A stretch of 64,000 nucleotides of DNA from Larimichthys crocea (taxonomy: Eukaryota > Chordata > Actinopteri > Sciaenidae), in the NCBI RefSeq assembly GCF_000972845.2, contig NC_040033.1, positions 5,422,241-5,486,240 on the forward strand. Direction: 5' to 3'. The notes below the pieces were generated by a model that was given only the letters and a program-made list of their open reading frames with translations, was not told the DNA's origin and ran no database searches. Shown one piece after another: positions 6,470 through 64,000 of this stretch (the stretch's first letter is position 1; each line of letters begins with the position of its first letter). The translations under genes were made by a program, and so were the position numbers.

Positions 6470-9400
6470 GACAGATTTCAAACAGTGTTAGACTCCTGAG
6501 TCTGATCGTGGCCTTGCTTTTGGGATTGAGCTGATTTATTCGGTGTAAAAATGCCACAAATAAGATTTATTTGATAAAAAGGTGTAGTCATTATTTTATT
6601 CAATAAAAAATAAAGCTGTACATAAGTGAATTAAACGCTTAAATATTTGATTAAATGTTATTTTTATTCATCTTCTTTGTTCTAATAAAAAATAAATAAT
6701 AAACGTGATGCACATTAAAAAAATAAATGCAGCATGTTTCGGTTTGTGTGAAATAAATCATCTTTATTGAAACATCTGGATTTATTATGAGAGCTTTGTT
6801 GTGCAGAGGTCACCTTCACCCACGTTTTCAGGTGTTGAATGAAAAAATAAAAAAACTTCAAAACCTTTTAGACCTTTAAAAAACAAAAAAATATTATTTG
6901 TATTAATTATTTTTTGTTTTCAGGCCTGAAATATATTTTTAAATCATGTCGCAGGGCCTCACATGTGCAGCTTAATGTTGCGTGAATCACAAAATGTCTC
7001 CCCCTCTTTGCAGACCTGTTACCTGCCATGGACGGTGACACCAAAACAATGACCTTCCTGCAGGAAGTTGTGGATATTTTACTGGCTTACATCGTGGAGT
7101 CTTTCGACCGGGACACGAAAGTGATTGATTTTCATTATCCCAACGAGCTGCTGCAGATGAACAACTGGGAGCTGCAGGAGGAGCCGGCGACTCTGGATGA
7201 TATCTTGATCAGCTGCCGGGCTACTCTCAAATACGCCATCAAAACAGGTAGGCCTGGGTGTGGACGTGTGGATGCATGACAGAAAAATACTGTAATAATA
7301 AGTAATATTCACATATATATATGTAGGCCTAATTTCAGGCCTAGTTTGTGTTTTAAAAAATGTCAAAATCACAATAAAAATGATAAAGACATGTCCTGAA
7401 ATCTTAAATTATAGCACATAAAATCTCAAATCTACCTGAAAACCACAAATTATTATTATAATAACACAAAAATCAGCTAGTTTGAAGATTTTAAGGTGAT
7501 TTTTATTGAAGGACGTCCTCTAAAAACTCAAAGTCAAGACAGAATAAAAAACATGAATGGATAAATAAATAAATCTATAGTCTATCTTTATAAAAAATAA
7601 AATAAAATCCACCTGGAAGTTGTCCTCCTTTTTCCTCCCCCTGTCCAGCAGACCGATAAATGCAGTGACGCAGTAAATCTGGGAGATAATAGGCTAATAA
7701 CCAGGATTCATAGGGCCAAGTCCATTATTCTCCCCTGACTGACACACACAGGAGATTTACAGCGTCAACATGCAGAAAATAACAAACAACAGACACATTT
7801 TTAGGATATATTCCTTATTTTGATACATATTTAGCATTTATAACAGCTTATGAACAGGTCATAAATGATTTGTGATAATTATGGTAACAAATAGGGACAC
7901 TAGAGTGTCAACATGGAGATATTTTGAAATGTTTATTAATGTATATTTTACTGCGTGTGTCACTTAAAGGAAGTGTTATGCAGGGCCAACTTATATGATT
8001 AAAAAGAACATTATAAATGTTTATAATATAAAATAAAATACATTATTCATCTTTTATACATTTTGTATTGGAAACAAACACATTTTTATGTCTCTTTTTT
8101 TGTGTTTGTTGTTGCCTTAATTATAAAACAAAAGTGTAAAAACTCTGGTGTGTTAACCTCCTACATTTCCCATGCAGCACCATTTCTTTTCATCATTTCT
8201 TTGACGTCAAACCTGCAATTAAAGCGTTTAGGAGATGAAACACACTCAGCATAAACACCAGATAAAATGTTCCCTTTCCTCTCCTTCCTTTTTTTTTTCC
8301 AGCTCACCCCAGGTACTTCAATCAGCTCTCCACAGGATTAGACATGGTCGGACTGGCAGCCGATTGGCTGACATCCACTGCCAACACCAACATGTGAGTA
8401 CGTGGGCCCCAGGGCCTTCGTCGTGATTTTAAATGGTGATAATGAAAATGAATTCCATTTCCGGGCGTCCGTCCGTGTGTGCACTCTGCTCTGCGTCTGC
8501 ACCGACTGATAGCAGCTTTTTTTTTTTTTTCTTTCACTCAATCATCGCAAATGAAAAGGGGGTGAAATGAAAGGCAGACCTCCTCCTCCTCCTCCTCTCC
8601 CTCCACCCTCACTGCCTTTCATCCCTCCCCCCTCTTACCTCTGATCCCCACGGGGGGATACAAGGGGGGAGAAAATTAGCCCTGAAATTAAATTCAGACT
8701 AATCTGAAGCCAATTTTTGGGTGTGCGCGTGTTTTTGGGGTGATAAACTCTGCGAGAGTCGGCCTTGGCAACAGTTTTTTTGGAAATCACTGCAGCTTGT
8801 GCATCAGAAATAAAACAAGGTGCACATTTATGTTTTAGTGCAGCAAAGACGATGAAGGTAGAACACTTTCGGGTGTATGAAATGTAGAAATCAGTTCATT
8901 TTTATGTCGTATATTATGTTTCAAAGCATAAGATATTTCTGCCTCTTCAGAAAACAACAATTCTCCATCTTTAATACACAAAAATGTTTAGTAAGTGAGT
9001 TATTTAGTCTTTTATCTGCCTGTGCAAGAGCTTTGATTGATTCCAACAAATGTCCGTTTGCCGGCTGTGTTTCGGTGATGAGTCATGCCACATTTTGCTT
9101 TTAGGTTCACCTACGAGGTGGCTCCCGTCTTTGTGCTGCTGGAATACGTCAGTCTGAAGAAGATGAGGGAGATCATCGGCTGGCCGGACGGGCGAGGAGA
9201 TGGCATTTTCTCTCCTGGTATGTATGTGAGACGATGCACCACCTCTCCACCTCCTCCCCTGTTTCACTGAAAGTGGAACTGTCTGCACTGTGTGCTGTGC
9301 TGCGACGTGTCAATTTGCATTTTGATGATATAAATGGAACTCGTTTCAAAGCCAATTAGCATAAAATCATTTTCCAACTTAAGCTCCCACCCCAACCCGT

Positions 9401-9638
9401 CTCCCTCCGATCTTTAATTTCTCCCGTCTGACACATGATGAGGAGCACTCATTGGGGGGATTTTAATGACAAAGACCGTGATTGGCTGTGACACTGCGGA
9501 CAGTGAGCTATAATTTTGGATGCTGTGTCATCTCTCGATACGCTTTTTGTTGCTGTTTGCTGCGTCATTGTTTTGAACATGCGCGGACGTCTTTAAAACT
9601 CTGCCACGCTTCATGTCAGCTTTGAAGCCCTGCACCAC

Positions 9639-9679
<41 letters not shown>

Positions 9680-12600
9680 CCCCTATGAGACACTCCAGAC
9701 TGACACTGGACTGCCCTCTCCGTCCTCTAGGTGGTGCTATTTCTAACATGTATGCCATGCTGCTGGCCCGCTTCAAGATGTTCCCTGAAGTGAAGGAGAA
9801 AGGAATGTCATCCGTTCCCAGACTGGTGGCCTTCACATCCGAACATGTATGTTTCAATCCAGCCGTGTTGAGCACTGATTGCTGGTGTGTGTGTGTGTGT
9901 GTGTGTGTGTGAGTGTGAGGATACAAGGTGACTGGTGTGTCTGTCACATTACGTGTCACCTCTTTCATCTTTAAAGGACGTTTATGAAAGCAACAAAAAA
10001 AAGCCATTAACGTGCAGAGCTGTTTTCTGACTGATGTAATTATTTATATATTTATTTATTCAGTCATTGTTATAAAAATAAGGATTGTACTGGGCTGCAG
10101 GTGATTTAACTCTTAGAGGGAGTGTATGTGTGTTTTGTCTTTTTGTTTATTTTGTGTATTCCCCTTATCTAGCATGTGTTTGTTAAAGCTGCCTGGGAAA
10201 GGAAATTTTAAAAATGTTCAAGGACATGAGAAACAGACTAAAGGAAGTGTCATTTTGGACAAGAAACATAATGTTCATTACTAAGGGGAAAACCAAAAAA
10301 GGAAATCGTTAGTGGGAAGATGTTCGAGACAGCCCATTTTGAATGCATTGTATAAAAACTACCTGACAGAGCTCCACAGGGAGCCTTTTTCTCTGTAACC
10401 CTCTTGTGTGTTGCACTGTTAAATACGCTCCTTCTTGTACAAGAATATGAAATTCAACTTAAACTTTGATACTTTGAATCCAGTCCTCCTTATTCAAAGG
10501 TTCTTCTTAAAAAATTCTCATGACAGTCATATTTTACCCCCTCCTGTGACCTGGCGTGCCGACAGTTAAACACAACCTCACTTTTGTTTCTTTCAGAGCC
10601 ATTTTTCAATCAAAAAAGGAGCGGCAGCTCTCGGCATCGGGACAGAAAGTGTGATCTGCATCAAAGCGGATGAAAGGTAAAACACGAGAAGTTGCTTTCA
10701 CTCAAATACTGGACTAAAGTAGAATTTTGGGCGTCTGTTTTCTACTACAATCTAAGAAAAACTGGTGCTCTGCAGCACTTTGGGTTCTTTAAAGAACCTT
10801 TTTATGTTTGCTAATATATTTTTCCCTTTAAAAGTTCTTTGGAGTTCAGAGTACTGGTTCTTTAAGTGACCTGGTTCTGTTAAAAAGACAGTTTGATCAC
10901 CTTTTTAAACCTGGTATACAGTACATTAATAACTAACGCCTGCTATATGCTGATCCTATCCAGAAATTATTGTTGTGGTGTCATTTCTAATTATAAAGGG
11001 TCATATTCTACAGCCACTGCTAATTAATAACTTTATTATTTTAAATAACTTCACTCCTTAAAGGTCCAGTGTGTAGGGTTTAGTGGCCCCTAGTGGGGAA
11101 ATTGCAGATTGCAACCAAATGAATACTCTCCCATGTCTCAACATCTCCTTCCAAGATATTTAAGAGAGACTCTCAAAGGCTGTCAAATTCACATTAAAAG
11201 CATAAAGGTCATATCTGGATCAGAGTCTGATTTGTCTGTTTTGGGCTACTGTAGAAAAATGGTGGGTCAACATGATGGAAGAGGACCTGCTAATACAATA
11301 AATACTCCTAAATCTTAAACACTGGACCTTTAAGTAATTAAAATAATTAAATATTTACACTAGATTCTTGGAAAGACTTGATAATAAATGTTTCCCTGAT
11401 GAACTATGGGGTAAAACGTTCCCCTGACCTTTATTTCTAACGGTGTACTTCATACTTCTACTCCATCACACTTCAGATTTTCTGACATGGTTTGACCTGA
11501 AACAAGATGTCATAGTCTGCTGAAGTATTACAGATCACACCAGTGGTTTCCATCCTTTACTAGAACATTAGAGTCGAGTTTCAGATGTTTTCAGACATTT
11601 CTCCTTGAAACTTCTCAGATGGTTAAATTCAAATAATAACAGCAAACATTTAAGGAAGCAGAACTTGTTCTTTTTCTTCTCCTTTCTACCATTTATCATC
11701 TCACAACCTTCAGATTTATTATCTGAAGAAACTCTTCGGAGGTGTCCGACCCCTTTTGGGAACCACTGCAGGAACTGTGTATAGAGTAGTTAAATCTAGA
11801 TCCAACTCCAGCAGCTACAGACGATGCTTACATAATGATGCATCAGTATATAATATATCAAATACAGGAGACAGGAGGACTTTTGTTTATAATATTCTTC
11901 CTCCGCTGATGAATTCACAAACGACTCAAGAAGCAACTAAATATTTTCCCTCTTTGCAGCGGCAAAATGATCCCAGCTGACCTTGAGAGGAGAATACTGG
12001 AGGCCAAACAGAAGGTAATGCGATCCACGTTGATACCTCAGCTATAAAAACTGCAGATAGACATGCTGATGAGGGGAAACATATCGGTATAGTGCGATCA
12101 TTTATTTCTTTGTGCCTCCGCAGGGTTTCGTACCTTTCTTCGTGAGCGCGACAGCTGGAACAACCGTGTACGGAGCCTTTGACCCTCTCATCGCCATTTC
12201 AGACATCTGCAAAAAGTACAACATCTGGATGCACGTGGACGTGAGTGCATCAGGCTTTTTGTTTGTCTCCGCAGACGCACATCTGCATAACCGCTTCCTG
12301 CTGCCTCGCAATTACCTGAAAACGTACGCGATGCACAATATCTGTCCGCACTTTCAGTGAAGGAATGCACAGAAATACGGAGCTCGGCGCTGAGTTTGAC
12401 AAATCCATTACGTCTGTCTCGCCTCTAACTGCGTGCGGTTGACCCAGATAGAAGCCAGCCATTTCCTATCTAACACTGGGGATTAGAAAAACTGGAACAC
12501 AGGCTGTAAATCATCTCTTCCCTCTGACTTTGCCATCATGGGCCCTCTCACTGAAGGAACTCTATCTATTAATGAAGGTGATTTAGCCCTGACAGGGGGA

Positions 12601-15600
12601 CACCTCTATTAAGAGACATAAATGTCCTTATCTATCATTCCTCAACCGGCGATAGGCGGGGAGAAAACATCCTGCTGTCGAGCGTCTCGGGGTATGTGCT
12701 GTTGTGCTGTGTTTGGCTGCACTCCTCAGTAGTAAACATTACGAGGCTGGGAAGTCTGGAAATGCAAACACATGCACATGAACCTCCGACTGATGGCAAT
12801 TTCTCGTCATGATTTACTCCTGAAAAATGAAGAAGGTCGATCATCGTGCAAAGCTGAAACTCCTCCATTCCATTCATCAAATTTTTTGGAAATTATTTTC
12901 TTGATTAATCATTTAATTGTCTATAAAATGGCTGAAAATAGTGAAAAATACCAATTTAATGAAGCGGGAACTAGATATTTTTTTGCTGTTTTTGCTCACA
13001 AATTATCATAATTTCCTATTGTTATTGTTATCTGTTAATTAACTAATTGCTTCAGCTCTAGACAAAAATAAATTTTGAAGAAAACTGTCTGGAGGAGAAT
13101 TTATATGAATAAATAAAATACTTGAAATAAAATTATCCTCGCAGGTTTATAGAGCTTAATAGAGGCTGACTAACATCATAAAACTTCACAGTAGAGGTGG
13201 ACCAAGCAGCAAAAAACTTAAGCCAAAAAACTGCAGTTCCTCAAACGTCCACTTGAGGCTGGCTCCAGAAGTGAGTCAGTCTCCATAAGTCCCCATGTTC
13301 AAATGTCCAACTTCACCTTAGAAATAAACATGTTTACAGCCTGGTACAAAAAACAATTTTGGTCTCTGTAGCTAATTTCCCCGTTCATGACAACTGTACT
13401 GAGGGGGGATTTATACAACTCACCTGTTCAGGTTATATTAAGGCTTAAAGTTATGCAGGATTATCAGTGTGGACGCTTTGATTGACAGGTAGGGGCCGTT
13501 ACTCATGGCTTGTTTGAGCAACCAGGCTTCATTCAACCCGCCTCAGGTCCAACCACGCTTCCCATTTTTGGATTAGCTGGAAGGTATAGTGGAGGCAGGA
13601 CTGCCACCTATGTTTTAAAAGGTGTCTATGGAGGTAGACTGATGAATCAGCCAGTACAGCTCAGCAAAACATGTTTTTAAGGTAATTTAGAAACAATTAA
13701 AACCTAACAGAAATATTTGTTTATGTCAGGTTTAACGGGCCTTGCATGTCTGTAAATGTTGAGGAACTTGCAAGAGACAGATTTTTAAAAGAAATCAAAG
13801 TCAGTGCAGCAGAGGTTGAGAAGTATCCTGACTTTCTAGCGCCTACATTTCCCGCAATGCACCTTGATCTCATCTATTTTTAGACCCTCCACACCTTCAC
13901 GTCACATCTCCCCAAACTCTCCAGCTCCTCCAGAACACTGGAGTACATGTTGGACGGCTCATCGCCGTCGCTTCATCCTCGGTTGACCTTCCACCGTCAG
14001 CACCTCGCGGCGGTGCTGAGTGACCCAGAACTGAGTTTGTGTGTCTTTACAGGGAGCGTGGGGAGGAAGTCTCCTCATGTCCAGGAGACACAGGTGGAAG
14101 CTGGACGGAGTCGAGAGGCAAGTGGCTTTTTCTTTTTAAATTAGTGTTGGAAGCTGACGAGGATTCAAAGTAACGAAGCGTTGGTTTGTCTTTGTTAACT
14201 TCAGAGCTAATTCAGTAACATGGAACCCGCACAAGATGATGTCCGTCCCTCTGCAGTGTTCAGCCCTGCTGGTCAGAGAGGAGGTAGGCCTCATCACATT
14301 TAACCAAAATCGGTGAATACTCTTCTTTTTCTTGTTGGGATAATCCTAAATATTCTGGCTCTGATTTCACAGGGTCTGATGCAGAACTGCAACCAGATGC
14401 ACGCCTGCTACCTCTTCCAGCAGGACAAGCACTACGACCTGTCCTACGACACCGGAGACAAAGCGCTGCAGTGTGGACGACACGTGGACATCTTCAAGCT
14501 GTGGCTCATGTGGAGAGCTAAGGTAACTTGAAAATCAGGCGGTTCTTTGAAACGCAGACTGATTTTGTTACGATAGACGCCCGAGATAGGAGTTTGCAGG
14601 GTTTTCTTTTGCTTATTTTGTGTTTTAACCACCATATTTTCATGCCTAATGTAAAAGTTGAAGTTTATTTTGTCTTCTATTCACGGAAATGTAAGTTCAA
14701 ATGCTCTTAGACTTCCTTAGATTGTATTTCTGCATTATTGTGTCCCTTCATTGTTGCTTTTCTGTGCATGAGTCTCAAGAAAATGCAAATTTTGGACGTT
14801 CTTGTGCAATTTTCCAGCAGAAAAATCAGATTTGTGTCTCTTTTTATCCACAAATTACCTTCAAAACCTCACAATCTTTTTCTTTGACAGGGCACCATTG
14901 GGTTCGAGGCTCAGATTGACAAGTGTCTGGAGCTGTCAGAGTACCTCTACAACAAGATCAAAGACCGAGAAGGCTACGAGATGGTCTTTGATGGGAAGGT
15001 ATGCCCGCATTTAACTTTCTCTCTCTGCAAACGTCATTCATCTGCAGCCAAAAGTGGCTACCATCAGTCCACGTCGCTTCTTTTGCCTCAGTGTATTCAG
15101 TGTCATTACGGGTGACTTGATTGGCACGCTGTGTGCTCTGGCTTTGTGTTGGATGAATGCCATTTTTACCTCTAGCTGCCAGTATAATGTGCTGCTATTA
15201 TGTTTAATGAATAGCATAACGGCCTGTAATTGCTCATATGCATATGAATAGCGTGGTGTCTGAAATATCCTCTCCTGAGCAAAGCTCCAGCGGCACAAAC
15301 ATACGCGGGTACGACCGAGTTATTAAGCTAAAAAATCTTTTGTATGACGAGTGCTTGGACACCCAGAGTCATTTATAGTGAAAGCTCTTTAATGTTTCAA
15401 GGCTTATTGTTTTCCCGCTGAGCCACAAAAGGGGCTAAGAGCATCATAACCCAGAGGGTGATGGGGAAAAAGCCAAGTCCTCTGGGCATCCGCCCAGGTG
15501 TTCACTTGTCTGCAATCCCATTGAGCCATTACATCAATCTGATGTTGAATATACTACGGCTGAACCAGCCCCGGCTGTATAAACGAGGCCGGTGTGCATG

Positions 15601-36760: not shown

Positions 36761-37038
36761 AGAGCCAGGCAGGTTTTTTCCCCTTGTTTCCTCTCCAGAA
36801 AGCAAACAAGTGCAACTCCCAAAATGTCAAACCACGTTTTTAAATGCCTAACGATATAATACCAAAAAAGTTTGTTACATACGTACTGTAAGTTAAATAT
36901 GTGCAGGAACAGAAGGATATACTTATCAAACTACTGCAAAAGTAGGCATGCCAATGTGTGCGTACACACACATACACACACACTGTATATGAGCACCGCT
37001 GCACATGTATGTGCACACACTCATACGTACTGTACACA

Positions 37039-37070
<32 letters not shown>
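37039..37070 (+). repeat. (CA)n microsatellite
   Basis: CA run within a longer stretch of interrupted CA/TAC repeats (36966-37080), about 270 bp downstream of the minus-strand gene's stop codon and possibly inside its 3' UTR. Confidence 0.9.
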
Positions 37071-37081
<11 letters not shown>

Positions 37082-37341: not shown

Positions 37342-38873
37342 TCACACTGCAACCCAGAGGATTGAAATGTTAGTGCCGCCCTCGTGTGTTATCTGGTTAA
37401 CTCGTCCACGGATACAGTCCAGAGTAACATACACAGCTGTACCGTTCTGTACCTGAAATGAAGCCCTGAGCCCGATGCTGGCCCACTGGCTTCCTTCAGG
37501 CATAAAACCAGACACCTGCTGAGCCACAGGACCTGCCTGCCCTCCCTGACCCCCCGCCTGCTGCAAAGTGAGTTTTACAATATTGCAAGAGTGTATCAGC
37601 TTCAGGTTAAGGGCTATGTTCACAGTCCCTTTCTCGTGGAATATAAAGTTCTTACGGCTGTTCGGCTCCCCTGAGCGGGCCAAATGAACTTGCGGCGTGT
37701 CCGGGCTTATCTGCTGGAACAACAGCGGTTTATTCCTGACTGCTCCCGAGGGCAGGCCAGTCCTGGACACGGTAGCCGCCAGGGCTGAAGACACCGCCGA
37801 AGGAATCCAGATAAGACTCAGCATGCTGATCCCAGTGCTGTCCCCAAAGTAACGGATGTTACACTGGGATGGAGACGTGATCTCAAAGCTAAGCGTGTCC
37901 CCGCTCTCCACGCTCACGGCACCGGAGAGGGTGATGGAGGTGTCCCTGTAGTTGACGCCAGTCTTGAAGGCTTGCATCGCCTCCTGGCCAGTCCCGTTTC
38001 GGTTCGTGTAGGCAATCAGGGAGAAACCCTCTCGAATGCAGGTGTGGCCCATAGAGTAAAGCGCCTGTTGGAGGACAAACTTCACAACACCGCTTTCCGT
38101 GAAGCGCACGCCGCGATTGTCATGAGTTAGGATGATCATATACGGGTCGGACACTGAGGTTATGCGGAAAGTTGGACGGTAGCTGGTCTGGTAGTGCGCC
38201 AACAGGGACATCTGAGCCGTCATCGCTACGGCACCGGTATCATGCGACAACCAGAGCACGCTTAAAGACGGAGTGGTTACATCATAGACGTGAAGATCCT
38301 TGCTCTGGTTGCAGTGTTGATTCGGACTCTTCAGCAGCAGAGTAAAGGTGTGGTTGGGCTCCACCTCGACTCCACTGCTGACGCTCACACCCTGGAAGTA
38401 CTTCCCATCCGGCTGTTCAATGCGAACACCACTGAGGTCCTGACCATCCTCCTCTTGGCTCCCATTAAGCCTCATTCCCAACTGAAGGAAGTTCCTGCAG
38501 CTGTGCTTTATCGCAAAGTTATGATCCAACCACACCAGGCCGTGCTGGAGGAACGTCACATGTCCCGCCTCATTGGACAACAGATCAGTGACCTCTTTGC
38601 CTCGGATGTTTAGTTGAAGCCCAGGGAAGATGTGGGTGCTGGAGGTCCGTACAGAAGGGAGTACCACATTGGCCCTCCAAGACTGGGAGAGTCGGCTCTC
38701 TGAAGGCAGGCCGCAGACGGCGTCACTGATAGCCGTGCAGGGACTGCCGACAGGTTCTCCATCGCAGTCCGAACAGGCCTGGCACTCCTGCAGCTCCTGG
38801 TTGTAGAAGTAGCCATGACCACACAAGCCCATCACTGCTTCTCTTGCAGAGATTCCCAGACACCTGAACCCCC
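37342..38873 (-). CDS. Last exon of the secreted protein: EGF end, TNFR-like module, three jelly-roll-like repeats
   Basis: One 1532-nt exon. The acceptor (minus-strand ttatctgcacag) joins in phase 1 to give NTPGGFRCLGIS, completing the EGF-like module. Then CGHGYFYNQELQECQACSDC with CTAISDAVC forms a TNFR-like module. The repeats share a G-x-V/hydrophobic strand (EAGHVTFLQ, ESGVVKFVLQ, EKGTVNIALN), an early Cys (HSC, HTC, HSC) and a later Cys (QHC, SQC, LDC), and two of three carry a V-x-SG-x-x-V-E or VESGD turn. Long single-exon coding is usual for C1q and TNF-type domains. Confidence 0.85.
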
Positions 38874-41285
38874 CTGTGCAGATAAAGAATGGAGAAAACA
38901 AGGAGTCAAACTGCTCTGAAGACTCAGCACAAAGTCAGTATGAAAAATGGTTTAATTACTTCTGTTAGTCAGCATTGTACCCAAACATGATCAAATATGA
39001 ATAAAGAGGAGGAAGATTTGCTCTAAAAATGAAGGAAGGCAATAGTATTTTTTCAGTTAGTTGCAAACTGTGTTGATTATGAAGAAAATAAGCATTTGTT
39101 GAACTCACCAGGAGTGTTAAGGCACTTTACTCTCTCTCCACAAATGTTTGGTAATTCAAGGCATTCATCTCTGTCCTGCAATTCATACAAATTCATATCA
39201 TACATATCATAATAACAGTCGATTTTAAGTGTATTTTTTAAAAACATTTGGCCTAAAACTGCAGATATCTGATGTTTTTTGCCTCATGAATTGACATTAA
39301 ATGACAAAAATAATAAAATATCTGTGTTTTCTCTTGAATTATTTATCATAATTAGAGGTAATATCATGTATCGAGGTGCTAAAGTGTAAATATTGTGCCT
39401 CCAAATCAGCTGTTGTTATTGTTGGGTGAAAACATTTGTGTATTTTTAAAATAAAATATCAGTATTTTAAAGGACCGTACCTGGCACATCCTGTCTGCAG
39501 TAGGAGAACATTGTGAGATCAGAAAGAACCCCGGTGGACACATGGTGCATTTCTCACACTGAGGCGGGTCCCTCTGAAAATCACAGTACTCCTCCTGCCC
39601 ACAGGGCGAAGGGCATCCGAGCAGAGGTTGAGGAAAATGAGCCTCCCCGACTACGTCCATCACCTTCGTGTCCATGTCCATCTTGTGGACGGCGTAGGAC
39701 TTCTGCAGGTGGCTGCGAGCTTGGCTCTGCAGACCCGCCAGGTGATTCTGGAAGTAGCTCTGCAGCTCGCCCTGCAGGCCCTGGAAGGAAACCTGCTTGA
39801 CGGTGTCAGAGAGGAGACCGTACTGAGCCTTCACCACGTCCATCTGCTCGTACATGCGCTGCTGCTGCTCCAGGATCTCCCTCTGCTGGGACAGTAGCGT
39901 ATCCTGTTGGTCCACGAGCTTCTGCTGCAGGTCGCGGATGATCACCTGCTGGGCTCGCAGGGCCTCCACCAGCTTCTCCTGCCCCTTGGCCAGCTGGAGG
40001 TGTAAGATGAGGGCGTCTTCTGAGGGAACTTCATTCTCCCCTGAGAGAGGGGAGGAAAAAAAAGGCACAATGGGATCAGACAGACATGTTCTTATTGTCG
40101 GAGGAAGTGATTAAATGAGATTAGGGCTGATTCAGTAGTTTGATTTCTGCAGGAACAAAGTGTGAACACCCAGTGACCCCCTTCTATTAGTCTAGCCATG
40201 GCAAGTGCAATGAAAGTTTCCTATATGGACCAGCATCAAAGCAGTCTGCATTTTCTGCACAATTGACTCTGAGACATTTTTCCAGTCCAGCTGCTCTAGT
40301 TGCGCTGCAGGTATCATTTTTTGGGCTGAAGGTCAACAAAGTCTTTGCTGTTAAATCAGAATTAAAATTAAAATCTGTTGATCACTGGTGGTGGGGGAAA
40401 CGTGATTTAAGACAATACAGAGTGTTGTGCATTTGGTTAAATAACAGGATCTCAGCTCGTGATGAGAATTCATCAACTTCTTTTGATTTTCACTCAAGCA
40501 GAAATCTCTCTCAGCGTGCGCAACTGTGCAGGAAGGACGAGTCAATCAGCCTCTAATCATCTAAACACAACAGTTACATTATTACATGACAATGATGATG
40601 ATGATGATGATGATGGAGATAACAGACCTGGCTTGATGTCACATGTGAGTTGGACACCCAAAGGCGCGCCGCCAAGTTCCGGCGACGGATATCCAAGCTC
40701 CGGAAAATCCCCCAGAAACTGCGCGGCTCTGTCGGACAGATGCACGGGAGGAAGCTCGCTCTCCTCTGATCCGACCAGACATCCCTCACCCACACAAGAC
40801 TTCGCTCGAGGTTTTGGCCGTATCCTCAGCGGCAGTCTGCACTCGATCCCTCTACAGTCTCGGGTGTCATTGGAGGGCTGAAATTGTTTCACAAGAGGCG
40901 CGGCGCAGTCCACATCCGTGCACCCTGCAGGTGAAATTTCAGGCGCTCTTATCCGTGAGCTGCCGCCGCCGCCGCCGCTGCTGCTGTCACCGTGCCGCCC
41001 GCGGAGCGGCTGTACAGCCGGATAGGCTTCTCTTGGAGAGCCCGGGTACGCATGGTGCTGGCTGGCATGGCTGTGTGCTATGTGCGCCGATCTCCCCTGC
41101 GTTGCCGGGTTAAACTGCCGCGGCGGTCTGGAGGATCTGCTCCCCGGACAGTGCGCACCGGTGCACGGTCTTGGATCACCGGTCTCCGCGCCGTAGCAGT
41201 GCGTCCCACGGCAAATCTCTGCGACAGCTTGGAGTGACAACCAAGACAGCAGCAGCAGCAACAGCGCGGGTGATACTAAAACCAT
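37342..41285 (-). CDS. Secreted multidomain protein: coiled coil, TNFR-like, EGF-like and three C1q/TNF-like repeats (unrecognised gene)
   Basis: Coding exons on the minus strand are 41285-40628, 40040-39481, 39175-39109 and 38873-37342. All borders are AG/GT and phases 1, 0 and 1 match, giving 2817 nt (938 residues plus stop). Signal peptide 1-22 (MVLVSPALLLLLLSWLSLQ, cut after AVA). C-x4-C motifs start at 25, 41, 122, 144 and 164 within a Pro/Gly/Ser/His-rich region. Gln-rich coiled coil about 231-310. TNFR-like Cys module 361-405 (CEKCTMCPPGFFLISQCSPT). EGF-like DRDECLELPNICGERVKC from 407. Second TNFR-like module about 446-482. Three beta-rich repeats about 490-637, 650-785 and 800-938 end in LSVLWL, LSLIWI and ISILWV. 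No transmembrane segment follows the signal peptide, so secretion and coiled-coil oligomerisation are inferred. I do not recognise an orthologue; function unknown. It lies antisense between gad2 and apbb1ip. Confidence 0.85.
39109..39175 (-). CDS. Small exon encoding the start of the EGF-like module
   Basis: 67 nt with acceptor ttgcag and donor gtgagt on the minus strand, encoding DRDECLELPNICGERVKCLN then TP. It is too short for ordinary ORF searches. It is supported because it is needed to keep phase between its neighbours and because D-x-D-E-C is the opening of a calcium-binding EGF module. Confidence 0.85.
39481..40040 (-). CDS. Exon encoding the coiled coil and first TNFR-like module
   Basis: 560 nt, beginning GENEVPSEDALILHLQLAKG and continuing with Leu/Gln heptads (LLSQQREILEQQQRMYEQMD) to about residue 310, then the Cys-rich CPSPCGQEEYCDFQR...CEKC segment. 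The donor is CAG|gtacgg on the minus strand, phase 0. Confidence 0.88.
40592..40616 (+). repeat. (GAT)n microsatellite next to a splice donor
   Basis: About eight GAT units 12 bp inside the first intron after the coding start of the minus-strand gene. Translated in frame it would read poly-Ser, which is why an apparent ORF runs on past the donor. Confidence 0.9.
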
Positions 41286-41311: not shown

Positions 41312-41399
41312 CTGCAAAAGAAGAAATGATACATTTGGATAAAAATCTCCAAAAGTCCATCAGCTCTCTCTTAAAGTTGACGCACACAGACTCTCTTAC

Positions 41400-53600: not shown

Positions 53601-56600
53601 TTTATTTGTTTTTATTACGAAGCATGATGAAAACAGAAAAACACACATCATTGCCAAAAAGGAACTAAGACATCCTTGATGTGCTGAGTGGTTTAAACAT
53701 TTTAAAAGTTCACTTTTAATATACAAACTGTGCCTGAGTCAAATAAATCCATTTTCTTCTCACACCAGAGTCTCTCAATGAACTGGAAGACACAGATCTG
53801 GACGCGCTCATGGCTGATTTGGTGGCCGACCTCAATGCGACGGAAGAGAAACTTGCAGCAGAGATACAGGGTCTGAAGGTGCCATCACCGCCCCCGTCAG
53901 ACTTACCGCCTCCACCTACGGACCTGAGCACACACCCTGCCTCATCGTACGCTTCCCCAACCTCACCAGCGAGCAGCACCGGCAGCAGCGTCAGCACCCC
54001 GGCCTCCTCTGCCACCTCCCCTATACCACCTCCTCAGTCTTCAAAGCCTACAAAGGTACAGCTTGTAAAATAAGAGAAGCACCTCTCTGCTAGGACTGGG
54101 TGAGAGGTTTAATTAATTGAGGATAATAGAGAGTTGCTATGGTTTTGAAGAAAAAGCCCAAATATTGGATGACAGATGATGAAGTTGAGAAGAAGAAGAA
54201 ACATGAAGCACAAAAAAGGAACTAATGTCACGATCTTTGTTTTATTGGTTTACCATGAGAAAGCAGTTTCTAAACCATGCGTGACAAGACAGTATTACAA
54301 CGCAAACACGACCAGTTCCCAGCGTATACATATCTGGTGAACTCTTTCTGTCTTTGCGGAGCTGGGATGAGTGGTATTCTCTTATAACGGGTTAGGACGG
54401 TGAGATCATGGCGAGAGCTGTTGCTTTGACGGAGGCATCTGTTACAGTTACAGAGACTCGTGAGGCCAAACAGCCTCAGAGAGTCTGTCTGGAAGAGATC
54501 AAACACATGAGGCAGGAAAAGAGTAACAGGATCAATACCAAAGGTTGTAGAAAGGGGAGGTAAAGATGTGGCAGTGGTGAGAGGGCGGAGGGGGGGGTTG
54601 AAGCCTAGACGGGAGCTTATTGCTTTAGCAGGACTTGTTACCTCATCCTTCTGAGGTAAAAACACCAGCTGTGCTGAGGCAGAGAATGTGTCATTGTTAG
54701 TCAGAGGTGTACAAGTTCATTAAAACTGCAACACAAGCAGGATTTTTATGTAAAAAAAAAAAACACATCTGATTTATAAGCCGGAGAAAAAGCGTGTCCT
54801 ACCCTCGCTAATTGAGATCCAGTAGATTAGACGCGATGTCCCCAAATTAAATTCTTTCGACGGCACATTCCAGTCACGAAATTAAAACTGAATCAAAACA
54901 AAACATTACACCTCCTGAGCAGCGGTAAAGTGCTAACATCCACAGAAAAAGAAAAACTCACCACTGTTGGATCATTTCCTCTCATTTAGCTTCAGCATCG
55001 TTTTCAAGCGATAGGTCAGCATTTTAAGAAACTTATCCGCTTATTCACTTTTTTGTTTTGTTGAGAGTTAGATGAAAGGATTTCTTCCACTCTCTAAATA
55101 CGAGGACACATCCAGCAGCAGATCATCTTAGCTTAGCATCAACACTAGGAACAGCTACCCAGGCACCTAACAGCACCTCTAAAACTCACAAATAAACACG
55201 TTTTCTTTAATCGTACAAAGACTAAAGTTTAAAAATGACACCTTGCAGTTTTAAGGGCGTGCCGGACTATTTCTTGGTTCATGGGCAGTGACTTCCTGTA
55301 GTCTTCGCTGGTTGCTTTCATCATTTCACAGCTATTGGCCAAGAAATTGATCAGCGGAAGAAACGCCCAGCAGTCAGTTTGCTCTTTGTATGAACTGAAC
55401 AAATGAAATAAGGCTCGCTGATTGAGTCAGACTTCTTAAGACTCAATTTTAAATGACTTCTCTTTGATTGATTGATTTATTTTAGTTTAGTTATTGTAGT
55501 TTTACTTTATCCTTTACTCCTTTAATCCTTTTCATATAAATGTTTATTGTTATTTAATATCTTTTAATCTTTTAATCATTGCTTTTATCATCTCTCTCTT
55601 CATTGTACAGTCGTTTTTTATGCCTTACATTTTTACTTTTGATCTCACCTGTGTCGCCTTCTGTTGGGTCAGCTGCTCTGTAAAGCACATTGTAAACTTT
55701 TAAAGGTGCTGTATAAATATAGTTATATTTAATATCATAAATTAGTTATAGAGTAATAATTAGTGAGCTTTAGAGGTGCTGGTGGGCAGAGTTTGTTACC
55801 TTTGGACTGACATCAAATATAATTTCTTGGTCCTGATTTTCCAAACGTTTTCCCACTTTCTGTGTACTAGATTATAACTCGTGGCAGATGAATGTTTATT
55901 CCTCACTGTAATAATCATTATATATTCTTATTTGTCCTGTTTAGGAGGAAATCGAGGCGCAGATGAAAGCGGACAAAATCAAACTTGCTCTTGAGAAGCT
56001 CAAGGAAGCCAAAGTGAAGAAGGTAAGCCGATGGTGAAGCGATCTTACATCCGCTGGAAACAATAAACTTTAAAGACATCGTGAATTACGGCTACATGGA
56101 CATCACTGTAAAAGACGTCATGTTCAAACGTAGTCTTTTATTTTCTTCTTTTGGAAGAGCCATCTATCACGGTAATGAATGGCCACTTTCATCCAGTCAA
56201 TGTCGTGCAGGACAGCACGGTTTCCTCTGCGGGTGATATGTGGACACTTTCTCATCTTCAAAGCCAAGTCAACAGAAGCGCAGACATGTGGTCTTGCATG
56301 CAAAGCTTCACATCAGGATCTGCGATTTTATACAAACTAGCTTCCCGACAATCTTTTCTTTTATCATAGATGATCTGACCGATGAAATAAATGCTGAGGA
56401 AAGTTAGAACTTGCATTAACGGGCCTGTTTTTCCCTTTTTTGAAAAGACAGTAATTGTTTAAAACCTAAAGAAAGCAGCCATGTGTGCGCAGATATGAGG
56501 AAACACAGACCACTGGCAACTTTCACAGGAACATCTGTATCATAGTTGTTAGATGCAAGAGTGCAAAGTACACTCTCAGTGGTTTTCAGCAGAAACCACT

Positions 56601-59600
56601 GAAGGCAAAGGCTGTTACGTTTCGGATGAACCCCAGTGGTTCCGGGGGCATGCTCCTGACACGTATCACATGTTTTGAAGATGCATATGGAAGAGCTGTA
56701 AGAGGTAAATCAACTTGATATAAGTGACATTTCATTCAGCCACATGCCAAACCCATATTGTTTTCCAGGGAAGGTCGAGACAGAGAAACATGTGATCTAA
56801 CACTCTAAATCCTCTTGTGATAACCATCTCTGAAACCCACATTTTTATGACACAAGGCAAGCGATTGGCTGACCTTGGCTCTGTGAAACTCCTCAGCTTC
56901 CCAAAAGCTGGATTTCATTCAGATGAGAGGAAGTGTGAAGCCGTATGAGCCTGCGCAGCGCTCCAGAGCATGATTAATCTCTGCCGACTTTGTCTCACCC
57001 AAAAGGAGACAAATTCGATACTGGAGAAATTACAGAAGAAGCTCAACAGAGTGGAGACACAGAAGTGCTGATGCTCCAACTCTTCGAGTAAAACTAACAT
57101 TAAGAAAACAGAAACAACCATTTACTCTGCATGGCCTGTAATTAAACTGGCTAACAAACAAGCTGCATGTGCTTCGAGGCTGGATTTGATGTTTTACTTC
57201 AGAGACACCTGCTGCTGTCCACAACATGTTTTAACTTCAATCTGGCGAGCAGATGACAGAAAACCTCATGTTTTCTGAAAGACAAGAATGTCAGATTACT
57301 GCTTTATGTCTCGCTGCTTGGAACATTTTCTGTCGTTTATTGTTTATTGCGGAAAAATACAGCAAAGTACAATAAAATCACATTTCTCTGTGACAGCTGG
57401 TGGTGAAGTTTCTGTTGAACGACGGCAGCGCTAAGACGCTGATGGTCGACGAGAGGCAGACTGTCAGGGAAGTTCTGGACAACCTGTTCGAGAAGACTCA
57501 CTGCGACTGCAACGTGGACTGGAGCCTGTGCGAGACCAACCATGAGCTGCAGCTCGGTGAGTTGCTGCGATACGGCATCGAAAATACTGTAACATCATGT
57601 GGTGGGTGCGACATTGTGGCGCTGCATCTATATTTATATCTATATATAGAACTTTTCATATCAGGTTAGTGCATTTCAAAGCGCTTCAGAGATGACTAAC
57701 AAGCTGATGATGAGAGAAGCATAAACAACGAAACCAAGTTGAGACTAGTGCACACACAAAAGGTCGAAATGATACATCTAAAAATAATGATGAAAGACAA
57801 TCAAAAATAAAATATATCAGACGGTAAAATACAATAAAAATGTTTTAAGGAAGCCAATCTAACGACTTTAAGATGAGTTTAATGACTTCCCTCCTTCTGG
57901 TTCTGGTTAGCACTTTAGCTGATTTATGACTTTTTTGGGACGAGTCTATCCTGCTGGATATAAAAGTGTACATCATGCGTACTCTGAATCCATCAGAGTG
58001 AGAAATGGTCGCACTTTAGCTGCATTTTTCAGATGTTAAAAAGCTGATTTATGACATACCGCACACACTTAATCTTAAGATGACACAGGAGTTTCTTGCT
58101 TATTTGCAAGTCCTAGAAAATGTAATTTTGTGGCTAGTTTTTGTCTAAGATTTCAGATGAGCTATATAGTGACATGAAGGCAGTATTATATATAAAATAA
58201 CACGTCTAAAACTGGCATCAGTAGGCTTTGTGTCATCAGAAGACACAGCCACATAAAGCCGCGTGTCATCAGCGTAGAAAGACACATTCTCCTCATGATA
58301 TATACAAATTTAGAAGACTGTAACCAGCTGAGGAGTGTTTATGACCAAAGATTAATCCATCAACAATCACCATTACCTTTAATGTGTTGCCACTAGTTTA
58401 TATAGCAGCATTGTGGCTTAAATCTGTGAGAGATTTGCTGTTTTTAAACACCTTGTGACAGGTTAAGTATGTTCAGGGGGGAAATTTAAAAATAATGGGG
58501 TGCACAATTCCAGCAGCAGCAGTTTAGAATAAATCAAAGACACACAAAGAATAAAAAACACAAAGATAAAGTAACTGGTAACACTGCTTTGGTAACAATT
58601 TGTGGTGACTTTAGTGCACAAACACAGCAGCTGGGCAGGAAATACCTGCAAAACACAGTGCAGCGGTAAACGTAGACTTCCACTTTAACAACATAAGCCC
58701 TCGGTGTGTTTTTATATGAATTGTCAACTGCGCACACAAACGTGCAGGGTGGGATATTTCATTCAGGCCCAGATGATGGACTGTGTTTTTATTGGCACGA
58801 TGGCAGCCACACTGCAGCAAGCTCACAATGAAACATTGATCTTACTCCCACCCGTCCTCCTCTCTTTCCTATACTCTCTCTTACCCTATCTCTCTCTCTC
58901 TTGCTTACGCACACACATACAGTGCAGACAGGTGGGTTTAATTTGCTGTATCGGACACTGTCAGTCATCCTCCCTGTCATGTGGAAATAAAAGCCTTATG
59001 ATCTCAATCCTCCGTCTGAGCTGTCTATGCTATATTTACTTGAGCTGCTAGACTCTTGGATTGTCTAGCCGCTGTTTTCTAATGATTTCATCAGATTGTC
59101 ACAGAGATAATTCATATTTTATAGCAACCGATCCTATATATCATGAACAGGGAGTCATTTTACTTCGTCCTGAAACTATTTTAATGAGATACTGATGGTA
59201 AAGTCATTAACCTCCATGAGCGGTGAAGTCAATATTATTTTAAATGAAAATTATATTCAAGTAATTTTATATGCAGCTAGTTAAGCCGTGACACACTTAA
59301 TTAAAGGATAAGCCTGGACTTATTACATATTTTTCTTATTTTCAACTTATTCCAATAAGGGAACAAAACCAGGAATGTTTCCCTAATCTATCCAGCTGTC
59401 CGCCTCAAGGCCCATTTATCCTACCAAATCTTTAATAAATAAATCAGAAATATATAGTTTTATTATAAAATGAAAGATTAAGCAATTCTCTTCAACTGTT
59501 GGTCACTATATTTTGTAGCAACTCTCAAACAAGAGTACATAACGGGTATGTTGGGGACTATTTTAGGCAGTGGATTAATACACAATTGCTATGTTAGTGT

Positions 59601-62600
59601 TTACAGCACCGTAATAAAGGAACACGTGTCTAATTCATGTATTTTTAATAGTTTTTGGACCTTAACAGTACGGCACAGAGGGATTTGTTGGCAAATACTT
59701 TGTAGCATTGCGAAGAGAAGTAACTCAAAAACATAAACATCAAGCTGATTTTGATTTTTTGATGGATGTGGCTGAGTTTGAAACACTTGAAACATCTGAT
59801 AGACACATTCAAATTCAACCTCACAACAAGTACAAACATGCGTCTTCATGCATTGGAGGCTAAGTGAAAATATATATATGTGCTGCCGGTGCAAAACAAA
59901 TGAGGTGTTAAAACAGAGTTTATTTTTATCCAAATGACAGCTCATGTCCGACACACACATCTATTTAAAGTGTGTCATCCAAACAAAACTTCTTCTGTTC
60001 GGGTCATTTGACTCATGAGCACGGGGGTGGACAGAGTCTTGTGTCACCTCTGACTAGCAAGGCCAGATGACAGCTTGACAATGGAAACACATTTTCCCCC
60101 CCGACCTTTAATCTCTATCAACGAAAAAATGTCCAACAAACGCCCACCGAGCTCAACGGCGTCTTCAAACAGTGAAGATCTCTCTGTTTAAATTTATCCA
60201 TGTGCTCACCATGCACACCACCGAAACACATCATGTGGTTAAAGCAGTTCAAAGGGGTTTTTACTCCACTCTGGCAGCAAAGTCACACCATCCTTTTAAT
60301 GATTGTAATAGTCAAACTATGGACTGGAACCCTGGCAGCAATTTATTTAATGCCTACCTCCACCTTGGCTGGTATCCTGTAATTGGGGACCATGGCTAAA
60401 CTACAGTCAAATGCCCAGTGCATGATGGAGATCTGTGGCACTGAGTGTGTGGGTGGGCAGAACGGAGGCGGAGGAGAAGGTGGTGGAAATAGGCCTTAAT
60501 GTGTTTTCGTGGTTTAGTGCCATTTAAAGTCCTTCCAACAAATCAGGAGGCTTGTATATTATTGAGCCCTTCCTTAATCCATCCCACTTGAAGAAGACTT
60601 TCTTACAGCTGTGAAATTGACTTTGAACCGAGCTCAGCTGATTTAAAGATTTTCGTGACAGAGTGAACTACTGTACATATGGTAAATCATTTGTTTTGAC
60701 ATGTTTTATGGTACAAAGCTAAAGCCGGGGGGACGCGGAGAATATAAAGTGAGATTAAAGACGGTTGTAGATTCTGGTTTAAATAATAATGTACTGTGTG
60801 AGAAAGTAAACTGGAGATATTTTTAATCTCCCAAAGCCCAGAGTGCTGTCATCAGTGCTGAGAAATGATCTTGTACGGCTGATAGAGAGATTAGCTGTGT
60901 TTACTGCGGAGGTGAAACGTAAGCAAGTATATTTATTTATGAGCGTACTGTACTTGACTGAAATTCAAAGCTACTTGTACTTTACTTTTTTACTTTTTAC
61001 TGCTGCTTGAGAACATTTCGAAACCGTTCTCTCTGGAAAATTACACCACTGTTATCAAAGTTTTAGTTGCCCAACCATCGTAGGGGTTTCTGGCACAACT
61101 TCAGCCACTTACAAGCTGCATGGAGAAAGTCTACAGATCTAAACTGACCCTGATAAAAGCCACAAGCTGAAACTCACAATAAAGACTTTCTTTATGGAAC
61201 TGGTGCTGGAGATTTGACCTTAACTTTAACCTGATTATAGCCTTTCTTCAGTCATTTTTAACGGTCACATGGCACAGTTTCAGACTTGCTTCAGTGTTTT
61301 GTGATGACAGCCACTCGTCTCATTCTGTCATTGTCACTTGTATATAGTTTTTTCTCTATTTGTAGTTTTATTTTTTATAATATATTCTAGTTTTACTTTT
61401 TATATAGTTTTCTATTTGTAAAGATCTTAACGCAGGTTTCATTTAAATCCAGGTTTATCTTATAGGTTAACTTTAGTGTATGTTTACTGTGAATGTCTGA
61501 ATTTCCTTTACTTTCCTTTTCACACATATATATTTATACATTTGAATGATTAGTGCGGCTTTACAGACTGACTAATAGACATTGTAATCTTAATGAATTG
61601 TTTAAGTTTGTTACCAACAACCCTGTATGTTTACTCCAAAACTTTTACTCTCATGGATGTATAACAAGACAATGGACCTTTACCCCATTGGGTCTGTGCT
61701 TGTTAGATCCATTCAGTAACCTATCCATGACTTGTAATTGAGTATTTTTGCATTATTTTGCCACGTGTATAATTAGAAAATTTTATACTTTGGCATCCCA
61801 CAATGGAAGAATCAAAAGGACATGTTGAATCACAAAAATACATCTAGATGTTCACCAGGATTGTCTCATTGGTCTACAAACCAAAACTTATACCATCATC
61901 GCATAAAATTAAACATATAGTGGCTTTAAATCTGAATACTTCCACTTCTTGTTTGCTGATGTCTAAGTTTGCTTTTCTTCCGACAGAGCGGACGTTTGAA
62001 GACCACGAGAACCTCGTGGAGCCTCTTCTCGCCTGGACGAGGGACAGCGAGAACAAAATCCTCTTTCAAGAGCGCAGGGAAAAAAATGAGGTTTTCAAAA
62101 ACCCACAGGTTGGTCCCCCCCTCATTATACGTACCTTTTATATACCTCTGTGAACATAAACCGAGTGATCAGAAGTGATGTGATTTCGTAAAAAGTACAA
62201 CACTGGCTAGTTCATTATTCCTGACCTTGTGCAAATCTATCTCCACATTGTTTCAGCTCAGTGCCATCTGGCTATTTTCACTGCTGAATCGCCGTCTGAG
62301 TTATGAGATGTCTTTCCACCGTGTAGGATGACCTCTTACATTTATGTCCTCACTGTAATATATCAGACAAAACAGCTTCAGGCAAAAGACATCAAGATCT
62401 TGGCATGTTTGTTGATATAATGGGAACCCTTTATAATCTTAGAGTGTTTAATGGATTCAGTCTGTTGGCAGAGACAAATAGCCGGGTTGGAAAAAACGGT
62501 GAGATATTCTCATTTTTAAACTACTCCATCATGCCTTCCACGTTCCCCAACAAAAGGCTGATCTGTTTTATACGGCACGTCCCATTCAATTTACAGTTTC

Positions 62601-63756
62601 TACTTTTGACAAGAGCTACCAAAGCAGATCTCCTCTTTGAGCTTTCTCTGGCCACAAAGAAAACATAGGTCCAGACTATGAAGTGAAATCAAACAAAAGA
62701 GGAAGAGTTAAAAAGATTTTTGAAAGTTTCATTTTTTTCTGCCCATGATGCTGATAGCCAATGTTTTGTTCTGATACTTAATATAGCTCATTTAGTCTTT
62801 TATCTTTGGCCAGACAGAAGACAAAGGCAAATAATTTCACAAAAGTCAGGATAATTGTAGATATTTGAAACAGACATTTGATGAATGATGAATGAGTATA
62901 AGAGTTTACAGCCATGCTAGCAGCTCTACTATCTTGTGACAATGATTGAGCCTCTGGGACAACCGCAAATGAGTCTGGGCTCCTGGTATAGCCAGTGGAT
63001 ATCTGGAAAAATGACAAACAAAAAATGTCCAAATATGTACAAACATCATGGCAATCCACCTCATAGTTGTTGAGATATTTCACTTGAAAAGACAAATGCC
63101 AACCTCATGGTGGCATTGCAGGAAATGTCAGAAGATCATCACAGTCAGTAGGACGTATCCATTGGAGATCATGAATGTCTGTACCAAATTTCATTGCAAT
63201 CCATGTTGTCGTCTTGAGATATTTCACCTGAAACATGGTGGTGCTAGTGGAAAATACAGAACATCATCATAGTTAAAAGTCAAAGAATGTATCCACTGGA
63301 AATCATGAATGTTTGCATCAAATTTCACGGCAATCCACCTCATAGTCGTTGGGATATTTCCATCTGGATTAAAGTTGTGTGGCTAATATTTTCTGTTTGC
63401 TGTAATCATTAATATACTTTTTGTTTTATTTCTGCAGAACTTTTATCTATGGAAGAAGGATAAGAAAGCTCTCAAAGACATAAAAGACAAAGACAAGGAG
63501 TTATTAGTACAGGTAAAATACACGCAAAGTGGAATATTTTCTTTAAAGTGACAGTTTTTCCCAGTGGGATCTCCTGTCAGTGTCCCTTTTCATCCCATCT
63601 TCCCCTCTGCAGGAGAACTTCTGCGGGACTTCCATCATCGTGCCTGATCTCGAGGCGGTGCTGCACCTCAAAGAAGACGGCAAGAAGTCGTGGAAACAGC
63701 GGCTTTTCCAGCTGAGGGCCTCAGGAATTTATTACGTGCCCAAAGGGAAGACCAAG
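50569..63756 (+). CDS. apbb1ip: APBB1-interacting protein (RIAM), N-terminal part; gene continues past the window
   Basis: Rap1 effector that recruits talin to integrins at the membrane (family knowledge). Coding exons are 50569-50628, 52208-52295, 53769-54055, 55945-56022, 57397-57556, 61987-62108, 63438-63512 and 63613-63756. All are phase-consistent (338 codons) and the next exon is outside. Domains: talin-binding helix MFSDLLGEMDLLTQSLG (residues about 7-23), second helix region ELEDTDLDALMADLVADLNA (about 54-73), Pro-rich DLPPPP Ena/VASP-type ligand, the helix before the RA domain (ADKIKLALEKLKEAKVKK), Ras-association domain from LVVKFLLNDGSAKTLMVDER (about 172-265), linker, and PH start (LHLKEDGKKSWKQRLFQLRA) to YYVPKGKTK. 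The N-terminus is a few residues shorter than the human form because the ATG sits at the acceptor. Lamellipodin (RAPH1) is the alternative paralogue, but the N-terminal talin site and the synteny favour RIAM. Confidence 0.93.
52964..53047 (+). repeat. Perfect 42-bp tandem duplication, apbb1ip intron 2
   Basis: Units 52964-53005 and 53006-53047 are identical (each begins ATTATTTATACAGTATTTTT). The surrounding sequence is AT-rich repeat-like material (52880-53240). Confidence 0.92.
53259..53567 (+). repeat. Adjacent dispersed-repeat remnants, apbb1ip intron 2
   Basis: 53259-53330 (TCACCAAAGTCAGTAAGATTC, then AAAATGTCATGGCAATCCACC) resembles the units at 63.03-63.36 kb. 53540-53567 ends CATTGGACCTTTAG, like the terminal repeat of the MITE at 11058-11333. 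Confidence 0.55.
53769..54055 (+). CDS. apbb1ip: apbb1ip exon 3, second helix and Pro/Ser-rich segment
   Basis: Encodes SLNELEDTDLDALMADLVAD, then LKVPSPPPSDLPPPPTDLST, then a Ser/Thr/Ala/Pro-rich low-complexity stretch ending QSSKPTK. DLPPPP is the Ena/VASP EVH1-type ligand; the Ser-rich tail differs from the human Pro-rich continuation. Confidence 0.9.
55012..55330 (+). repeat. High-copy fish repeat, apbb1ip intron 3
   Basis: Contains ATCTTAGCTTAGCATCAACA, AGCACCTCTAAAACTCAC and TGCCGGACTATTTCTTGG. The middle word is the reverse complement of the block at 55765-55807, so two copies lie in opposite orientations about 0.5 kb apart. Between them, about 55660-55730, is a LINE-like tail (gtaaagcacattgtaaac, ggtgctgtataaata). 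Confidence 0.65.
55765..55807 (+). repeat. Repeat fragment shared with 36718-36760
   Basis: 38 of 43 bases identical to 36718-36760, and inverted relative to the copy at 55012-55330. Confidence 0.7.
57397..57556 (+). CDS. apbb1ip: apbb1ip exon 5, Ras-association domain (first part)
   Basis: Encodes LVVKFLLNDGSAKTLMVDER, then EVLDNLFEKTHCDCNVDWSL. This is the ubiquitin-like RA fold that binds Rap1-GTP; exon 6 (61987-62108) completes it with RTFEDHENLVEPLLAWTRDS. Confidence 0.93.
57680..61980 (+). other. Long apbb1ip intron 5, no coding exon seen
   Basis: About 4.4 kb between the two Ras-association exons. It is AT-rich with short TC and TATA runs, and no splice-flanked conserved peptide was found. 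Short ORFs at about 58.7-59.05 and 59.6-59.96 kb look random. Confidence 0.6.
63030..63360 (+). repeat. Three diverged tandem units of a dispersed repeat, apbb1ip intron 6
   Basis: The core 'gcaatccacctcatagttgt' to 'gagatatttc' starts at 63051, 63196 and 63330, i.e. at about 134-145 bp spacing. Single related fragments occur at 1136-1160 and 53310-53330. Confidence 0.75.
63613..63756 (+). CDS. apbb1ip: apbb1ip exon 8, start of PH domain
   Basis: Encodes ENFCGTSIIVPDLEAVLHLK and then KKSWKQRLFQLRASGIYYVP. This gives the first strands and the basic phosphoinositide-binding loop of the PH domain. The donor is AAG|gtcagg; the remainder of PH and the proline-rich C-terminus are beyond the window. 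Confidence 0.93.
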
Positions 63757-64000
63757 GTCAGGGGTCAAAACGTGACATCATTTTGTGCACCCGTCCGACA
63801 TTCAGTCGGGCTCAAGCAGTGATGAAGGACATTCAGAGATACTTTTAGCAACAGAAACCTGAGGAAATATAAGGTTTATTTCAGTGTGTAGTCTTCCTGT
63901 TTCATGAACCAAACTCTTGTTTCGTGCAACACTGAATATAATTGAGCTTTTACTCCCTGCTGAATACCTGAATACAGTACATTCACCTACTCTACATCTT

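Follow-up and report, generated by a model that had tools for sequence, protein, structure and literature searches.

Trimers of C1q and TNF proteins normally form from separate chains, and C1q, the cerebellins and the TNF ligands serve as extracellular adaptors or ligands. The vertebrate protein C1QTNF4 (CTRP4) is not known to have TNFR modules. The single-chain trimers APRIL-BAFF-BAFF (4zch), the C1q head (5hkj/5hzf) and adiponectin (4dou) are laboratory fusions. Here we describe a natural chain of 938 residues, encoded on the minus strand of a 64,000-nucleotide stretch of Larimichthys crocea contig NC_040033.1 (positions 5,422,241 to 5,486,240; 'the window' refers to this whole stretch). We consider it likely that the chain is secreted and forms extracellular oligomers, and that its C-terminal 450 residues, as modelled, fold into one complete TNF/C1q-type trimeric head per chain.

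Engineered single-chain TNF trimers have short linkers, as described in the available passages of PMC5529482. In comparison with such constructs, the repeats of the fish head are diverged, being 19–25% identical to one another in a rough alignment and ~10% identical to PDB chains. Bivalve multi-C1q proteins are presented, in the available passages of PMC5519582 and PMC6835236, as secreted proteins with three tandem C1q domains and sometimes a coiled coil; they include pearl mussel HcC1qDC6 and 21 Eastern oyster genes, mostly with three C1q domains. Further examples stand beside these known three-domain chains in the accessible part of a review (PMC10672478). Those passages on the bivalve proteins make no mention of a TNFR/EGF stalk, and the word trimer is absent from the available text of PMC5519582. 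They report that the C1q domains of HcC1qDC6 were detected by SMART, whereas the fish repeats are undetected by Pfam; the fish chain therefore matches the bivalve class in predicted fold but not in C1q profile, a comparison that does not extend to kinship. C1QTNF4 is a secreted protein with two C1q domains per chain, according to the available text of PMC10206021, against three C1q-type domains here.

Two predicted phage or giant-virus proteins (A0A6J5LW36 and A0A1X9VNK7, BFVD) align to the whole fish head over 468 and 502 columns (template modelling score, TMq, 0.68 and 0.72). At 12% identity to the fish head, these viral models show structural likeness, which need not mean homology, and suggest that single-chain C1q-type trimers may also occur in viruses. 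Because bivalve multi-C1q proteins and predicted viral proteins have it, the three-domain chain is an architecture already known. The novelty, as far as our searches go, lies in a vertebrate chain whose three domains escape domain profiles, are predicted to close into one head and are carried together with TNFR modules.

Searches of the open PMC literature for single-chain or tandem C1q/TNF proteins returned engineered constructs and bivalve proteins, and a search for proteins that combine TNFR with C1q domains returned only an off-topic mussel transcriptome. In the same literature we found no paper on nell3, si:ch211-37e10.2 or si:ch211-252f13.5 – names carried by members of this family – with variant spellings giving only papers whose titles mark them as chance matches, and no paper that treats gad2, apbb1ip and zebrafish together.

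A four-exon gene encodes the chain

Four minus-strand exons (41285-40628, 40040-39481, 39175-39109 and 38873-37342) join into a single 938-residue frame through GT-AG introns with compatible phases, as the initial annotation had proposed. All three junctions fall in gap-free alignment with the Scatophagus, Danio and Heterodontus (horn shark) orthologues, which are 91%, 70% and 56% identical overall. The GC content at codon positions 1, 2 and 3 is 0.59, 0.46 and 0.66; that of the window as a whole is 0.41. The parts of the gene are as follows (window coordinates).

40628..41285, minus strand: coding exon 1, residues 1-219; hydrophobic N-terminus, five C-x4-C motifs and start of the GVQLTCDIKPGENEVPSED box, from sequence
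39481..40040, minus strand: coding exon 2, residues 220-406; end of the box, coiled coil and first TNFR module, from sequence, model and Pfam
39109..39175, minus strand: coding exon 3, residues 407-428; the larger part of an EGF module of calcium-binding type with four cysteines (PF07645)
37342..38873, minus strand: coding exon 4, residues 429-938 and stop; end of the EGF module, second TNFR module and three jelly-roll repeats, from sequence, Pfam and model
39712..40020, minus strand: long helix or coiled coil, residues 227-329, from helix 222-324 in the model of orthologue P0001 and a heptad pattern
39484..39615, minus strand: TNFR cysteine-rich module 1, residues 362-405, eight cysteines (PF00020, 36.8 bits scanned alone)
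38857..39175, minus strand, exon 3 into exon 4: EGF module, residues 407-434, four cysteines (PF07645)
38713..38823, minus strand: TNFR cysteine-rich module 2, residues 446-482, six cysteines (PF00020, 35.9 bits scanned alone)
38248..38688, minus strand: predicted jelly-roll repeat R1, residues 491-637
37801..38229, minus strand: predicted jelly-roll repeat R2, residues 644-786
37348..37791, minus strand: predicted jelly-roll repeat R3, residues 790-937

The C-terminus is predicted to form a trimeric head within one chain

AlphaFold2 (AF2) prediction on a single chain placed three C-terminal jelly rolls, connected by links of 6 and 3 residues, in a closed form with a predicted template modelling score (pTM) of 0.91. 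The predicted head resembles the structures of APRIL, BAFF, CD40L and RANKL. The beta-rich repeats that had been anticipated from the sequence are thus present in the model, though faint as sequence repeats: profile comparison linked R1 to R3 (probability 84, E 7.9e-6, 101 columns) and R1 to R2 (probability 78, E 1.7e-5, 27 columns). Structure prediction supports a TNF/C1q jelly-roll fold for the repeats, and the trimeric assembly within one chain is itself a prediction of the model, one that the initial annotation had not put forward. R2 is the most conserved of the three (consensus frequency 0.82, against 0.73 and 0.71 for the others); the conservation of cysteines, below, was counted in 85 sequences.

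A search for relatives of the C-terminal part, limited to candidates of ~250–800 residues, found none outside the family among the best 120 of 162 matches (E up to 1). All 120 had E < 1e-198, and every match that carried a taxon name was from a vertebrate; many carried none.

The predicted head is preceded by a probable TNFR-EGF-TNFR stalk

Scanned alone, both TNFR_c6 modules exceed the Pfam cut-off of 29.4 bits. TNFR_c6 was also found in two stretches when the whole protein was scanned (best 366-405; E 3.7e-14 for the whole protein). The EGF_CA match is less even, at 31.6 bits alone and 24 bits in the whole protein, on either side of the 27-bit cut-off. Read from the sequence, this EGF module has four cysteines instead of six and is missing its last loop. 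The EGF-like module of the initial annotation is therefore upheld when scanned alone, but falls short of the cut-off in the whole protein and has only four of its cysteines. Both families match all 46 orthologues and paralogues scanned (E up to 1). The middle region has 18 cysteines (8 + 4 + 6), whose columns are cysteine in 84–85 of the 85 sequences; the eight of module 1 are kept in every sequence and those of module 2 in 84–85.

Modules of the TNFR type and of the TNF/C1q type thus share a single chain of secreted type that also has a coiled coil, as had been suggested, the former recognised by Pfam and the latter by structure prediction.

Conserved cysteines and a coiled coil mark the N-terminal part

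By eye, a hydrophobic N-terminal stretch resembles a signal peptide, and the protein contains seven N-glycosylation motifs, compatible with secretion. Residues 25-169 (40779-41213, minus strand) hold the five C-x4-C motifs, of which four read C-x-G-x-x-C; a C-x4-C region had been noted in the initial annotation. Eight of their ten cysteines are kept in 76–83 of the 85 sequences and the third pair in 63–64. Most cysteines excepted, the N-terminal third is weakly conserved (mean consensus frequency 0.45). Up to E 10, a range in which HMMER filters drop most matches above 0.1, we found no Pfam family for the first 228 residues.

The sequence between the C-x4-C cysteines is poorly kept, and the motif may be a small disulphide loop.

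Directly before the coiled coil stands the GVQLTCDIKPGENEVPSED box, with a consensus frequency of 0.92 and a single cysteine kept in 83 of the 85 sequences. The coiled coil of the initial annotation agrees with both the long helix in the P0001 model and the heptad pattern.

An old jawed-vertebrate gene, likely lost in placental mammals

A search of ~5.8 billion proteins gave 308 matches, the best 120 of which bear, among others, the names nell3, si:ch211-37e10.2, 'NELL (neural EGFL like) family member 3', 'TNFR-Cys domain-containing protein' or uncharacterized. The gene had been called unrecognised; this holds for its function, but as a gene it is already annotated under nell3, si:ch211-37e10.2 and the TNFR-Cys name. 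A second search, with a stork orthologue (P0110), gave 351 matches; the best 120, with scores down to 1115 bits, include birds, turtles, lizards, snakes, an alligator, amphibians, sharks and a ray.

Because sharks and tetrapods carry it, this is an old jawed-vertebrate gene rather than a gain in fish, one of two histories that had been offered for it. The other, absence from mammals, fails as stated: the platypus has an orthologue (P0161, 80% identity over 76% of the stork protein) and so does the marsupial Sminthopsis (P0144, 72% identity over 98%, 1478 bits). No placental mammal occurs among the taxon-named entries in the best 120 of 308, 351 and 162 matches, in searches that did not take in placental genomes themselves; each name denotes one member of a cluster, and unlisted or unnamed entries could hold a placental fragment. 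Loss in placental mammals is nevertheless likely, because a placental orthologue would be expected near the marsupial's 1478 bits and the matches reach down to 1115.

In a quick maximum-likelihood tree of 47 proteins, rooted by choice on cartilaginous fish, tetrapods lie apart from ray-finned fish, with bichir, sturgeon, and gar plus bowfin below the teleosts. The teleost paralogue si:ch211-252f13.5 (salmon P0115, 56% identity over 98%) is represented by nine entries that form a single branch with a long stem (0.48), nested inside the teleosts and placed above eels and bonytongues.

Three reptile orthologues (P0143, P0160 and P0214) are labelled 'leucine-rich repeat-containing', which is probably a misannotation.

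Proposed organisation of the protein

In the arrangement that we propose, a signal peptide is followed by five C-x4-C motifs, each closed as a small disulphide loop. The lone conserved cysteine of the box and the coiled coil after it would probably multimerise and cross-link chains. The TNFR-EGF-TNFR stalk would most simply be a stiff, disulphide-rich spacer, and beyond it the three diverged jelly rolls, on their short links, would close round a pseudo-threefold axis. Since each chain would carry a finished head, the coiled coil and Cys215 would link complete heads into a multivalent bouquet, each head offering three unlike faces, and valence would follow from chain number. By analogy with C1q, cerebellins and TNF ligands, the most likely role would be that of an extracellular adaptor or ligand whose head binds a cell-surface or matrix partner. 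R2, as the most conserved repeat, is the first candidate for the binding face.

Several results weigh against this proposal. R2 and R3 showed no significant profile similarity (probability 12, E 0.0024, 34 columns). The Pfam TNF family PF00229 stayed below its 23-bit cut-off on the repeats (13.8 bits, E 0.059) and appeared in only 3 of the 46 family members (best E 0.02), while C1q (PF00386) was never listed in scans of the protein, its fragments or the 46 members. At E up to 10, a PDB profile search aligned the repeats to neither a TNF nor a C1q chain. Because its alignment consists of one narrow family, the model relies on learnt C1q/TNF structures, and a domain-swapped assembly between chains would be compatible with the monomer prediction. 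In the full-length model of P0001, the predicted local distance difference test (pLDDT) is 26–50 over the first 220 residues and 32–58 in blocks across the TNFR/EGF region. As this is the sole model covering the stalk, the TNFR assignment rests on Pfam and cysteine conservation; the TNFR modules claimed by the initial annotation are upheld as sequence modules but not as predicted folds.

Alternative explanations

Foremost among the alternatives, and possible though less probable than a ligand or adaptor, is a structural component of matrix or basement membrane like the EMILINs and multimerins, which would form large polymers through coiled coil and cysteines and use its heads for assembly or adhesion, with no signalling partner. 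The order of parts agrees with this, since in the model a coiled coil (helix 222-324) precedes C1q-type jelly rolls, albeit with TNFR and EGF modules between, and many N-terminal cysteines are conserved. EMILINs, however, have one C1q domain per chain where this chain has three, and no EMI domain was found, the N-terminal 228 residues giving no Pfam match at E up to 10. Membership of the EMILIN/multimerin family was rejected for want of an EMI match.

It is doubtful, if conceivable, that the protein is a self-capped, conditionally active ligand, its TNFR modules engaging the TNF-like head of their own chain or of a neighbour. A single chain does carry both module types, the 14 TNFR-module cysteines are kept in 84–85 of 85 sequences, and the likeness of the head is to APRIL, BAFF, CD40L and RANKL; set against this, there are only two TNFR modules with an EGF between them, and low pLDDT in the stalk makes a contact with the head unreadable. 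Such a cis-capped protein would be a natural single-chain TNF/C1q trimer, released or clustered through its coiled coil, and part of an ancient cytokine-like system reaching from sharks to marsupials and lost in placentals – an equally doubtful extension.

Slightly less probable still is that the jelly rolls pair between chains, as domain-swapped trimers or hexamers. This would follow the usual habit of C1q and TNF proteins, and the AF2 run was made on a single chain; but the links of 6 and 3 residues and the high pTM of the closed form speak for closure within the chain, as do the short linkers of engineered single-chain TNF trimers (in the available passages of PMC5529482).

The database name nell3 implies a third NELL family member. 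NELL proteins have a coiled coil, but also an N-terminal laminin-G/TSPN domain, VWC repeats and several EGF repeats. The EGF region of the fish protein weakly matches NELL2 (6pog, E 0.011), NEL (9oz6, E 0.03) and NELL1 (6pol, E 2.3) in the PDB. Against this, it has one four-cysteine EGF (a single EGF_CA stretch), and the 24 families listed for the 46 members (E up to 1) include neither laminin-G/TSPN nor VWC; Laminin_N, a domain other than laminin-G, appears in one member (E 0.14). As the 816-residue NEL chain matches residues 402-434 only, within the EGF, and laminin-G/TSPN and VWC are unmatched, we rejected NELL membership as very improbable and regard the name as misleading.

Genomic neighbourhood

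The neighbours of the gene lie on the plus strand.

9577-14528, plus strand: gad2 frames, matching glutamate decarboxylase 2
6986-7276, plus strand: further gad2-like frame, by eye
57394-63819, plus strand: apbb1ip (RIAM) frames, joined pieces
53747-54070, plus strand: apbb1ip N-terminal-like frame, by eye

Because joined frames on one side match glutamate decarboxylase 2 (PDB 2okk, E 8.5e-58) and two joined pieces on the other match APBB1IP (PDB 4kvg, E 1.1e-42), the gene sits between gad2 and apbb1ip, on the opposite strand from both, bearing out the antisense position first described. Upstream of its start codon, a GT at 41399, an AG at 41312 and a TATA-like site at 41978 suggest, by eye, a 5' non-coding exon. 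Past the stop codon is an AC dinucleotide repeat of 22 copies (37034-37077), possibly in the 3' untranslated region.

Significance

Protein engineers have joined three TNF/C1q domains in one chain for stable trimers, and a natural jawed-vertebrate chain is predicted to do likewise. A head built from a single chain could evolve three different faces. The gene, kept from sharks to marsupials, bears the misleading name nell3, and because it is seemingly lost in placentals, work in mouse and human would miss it. Should the head bind a receptor, fish, frogs and birds would possess an extracellular ligand or adaptor that has been overlooked and that could be tested directly.
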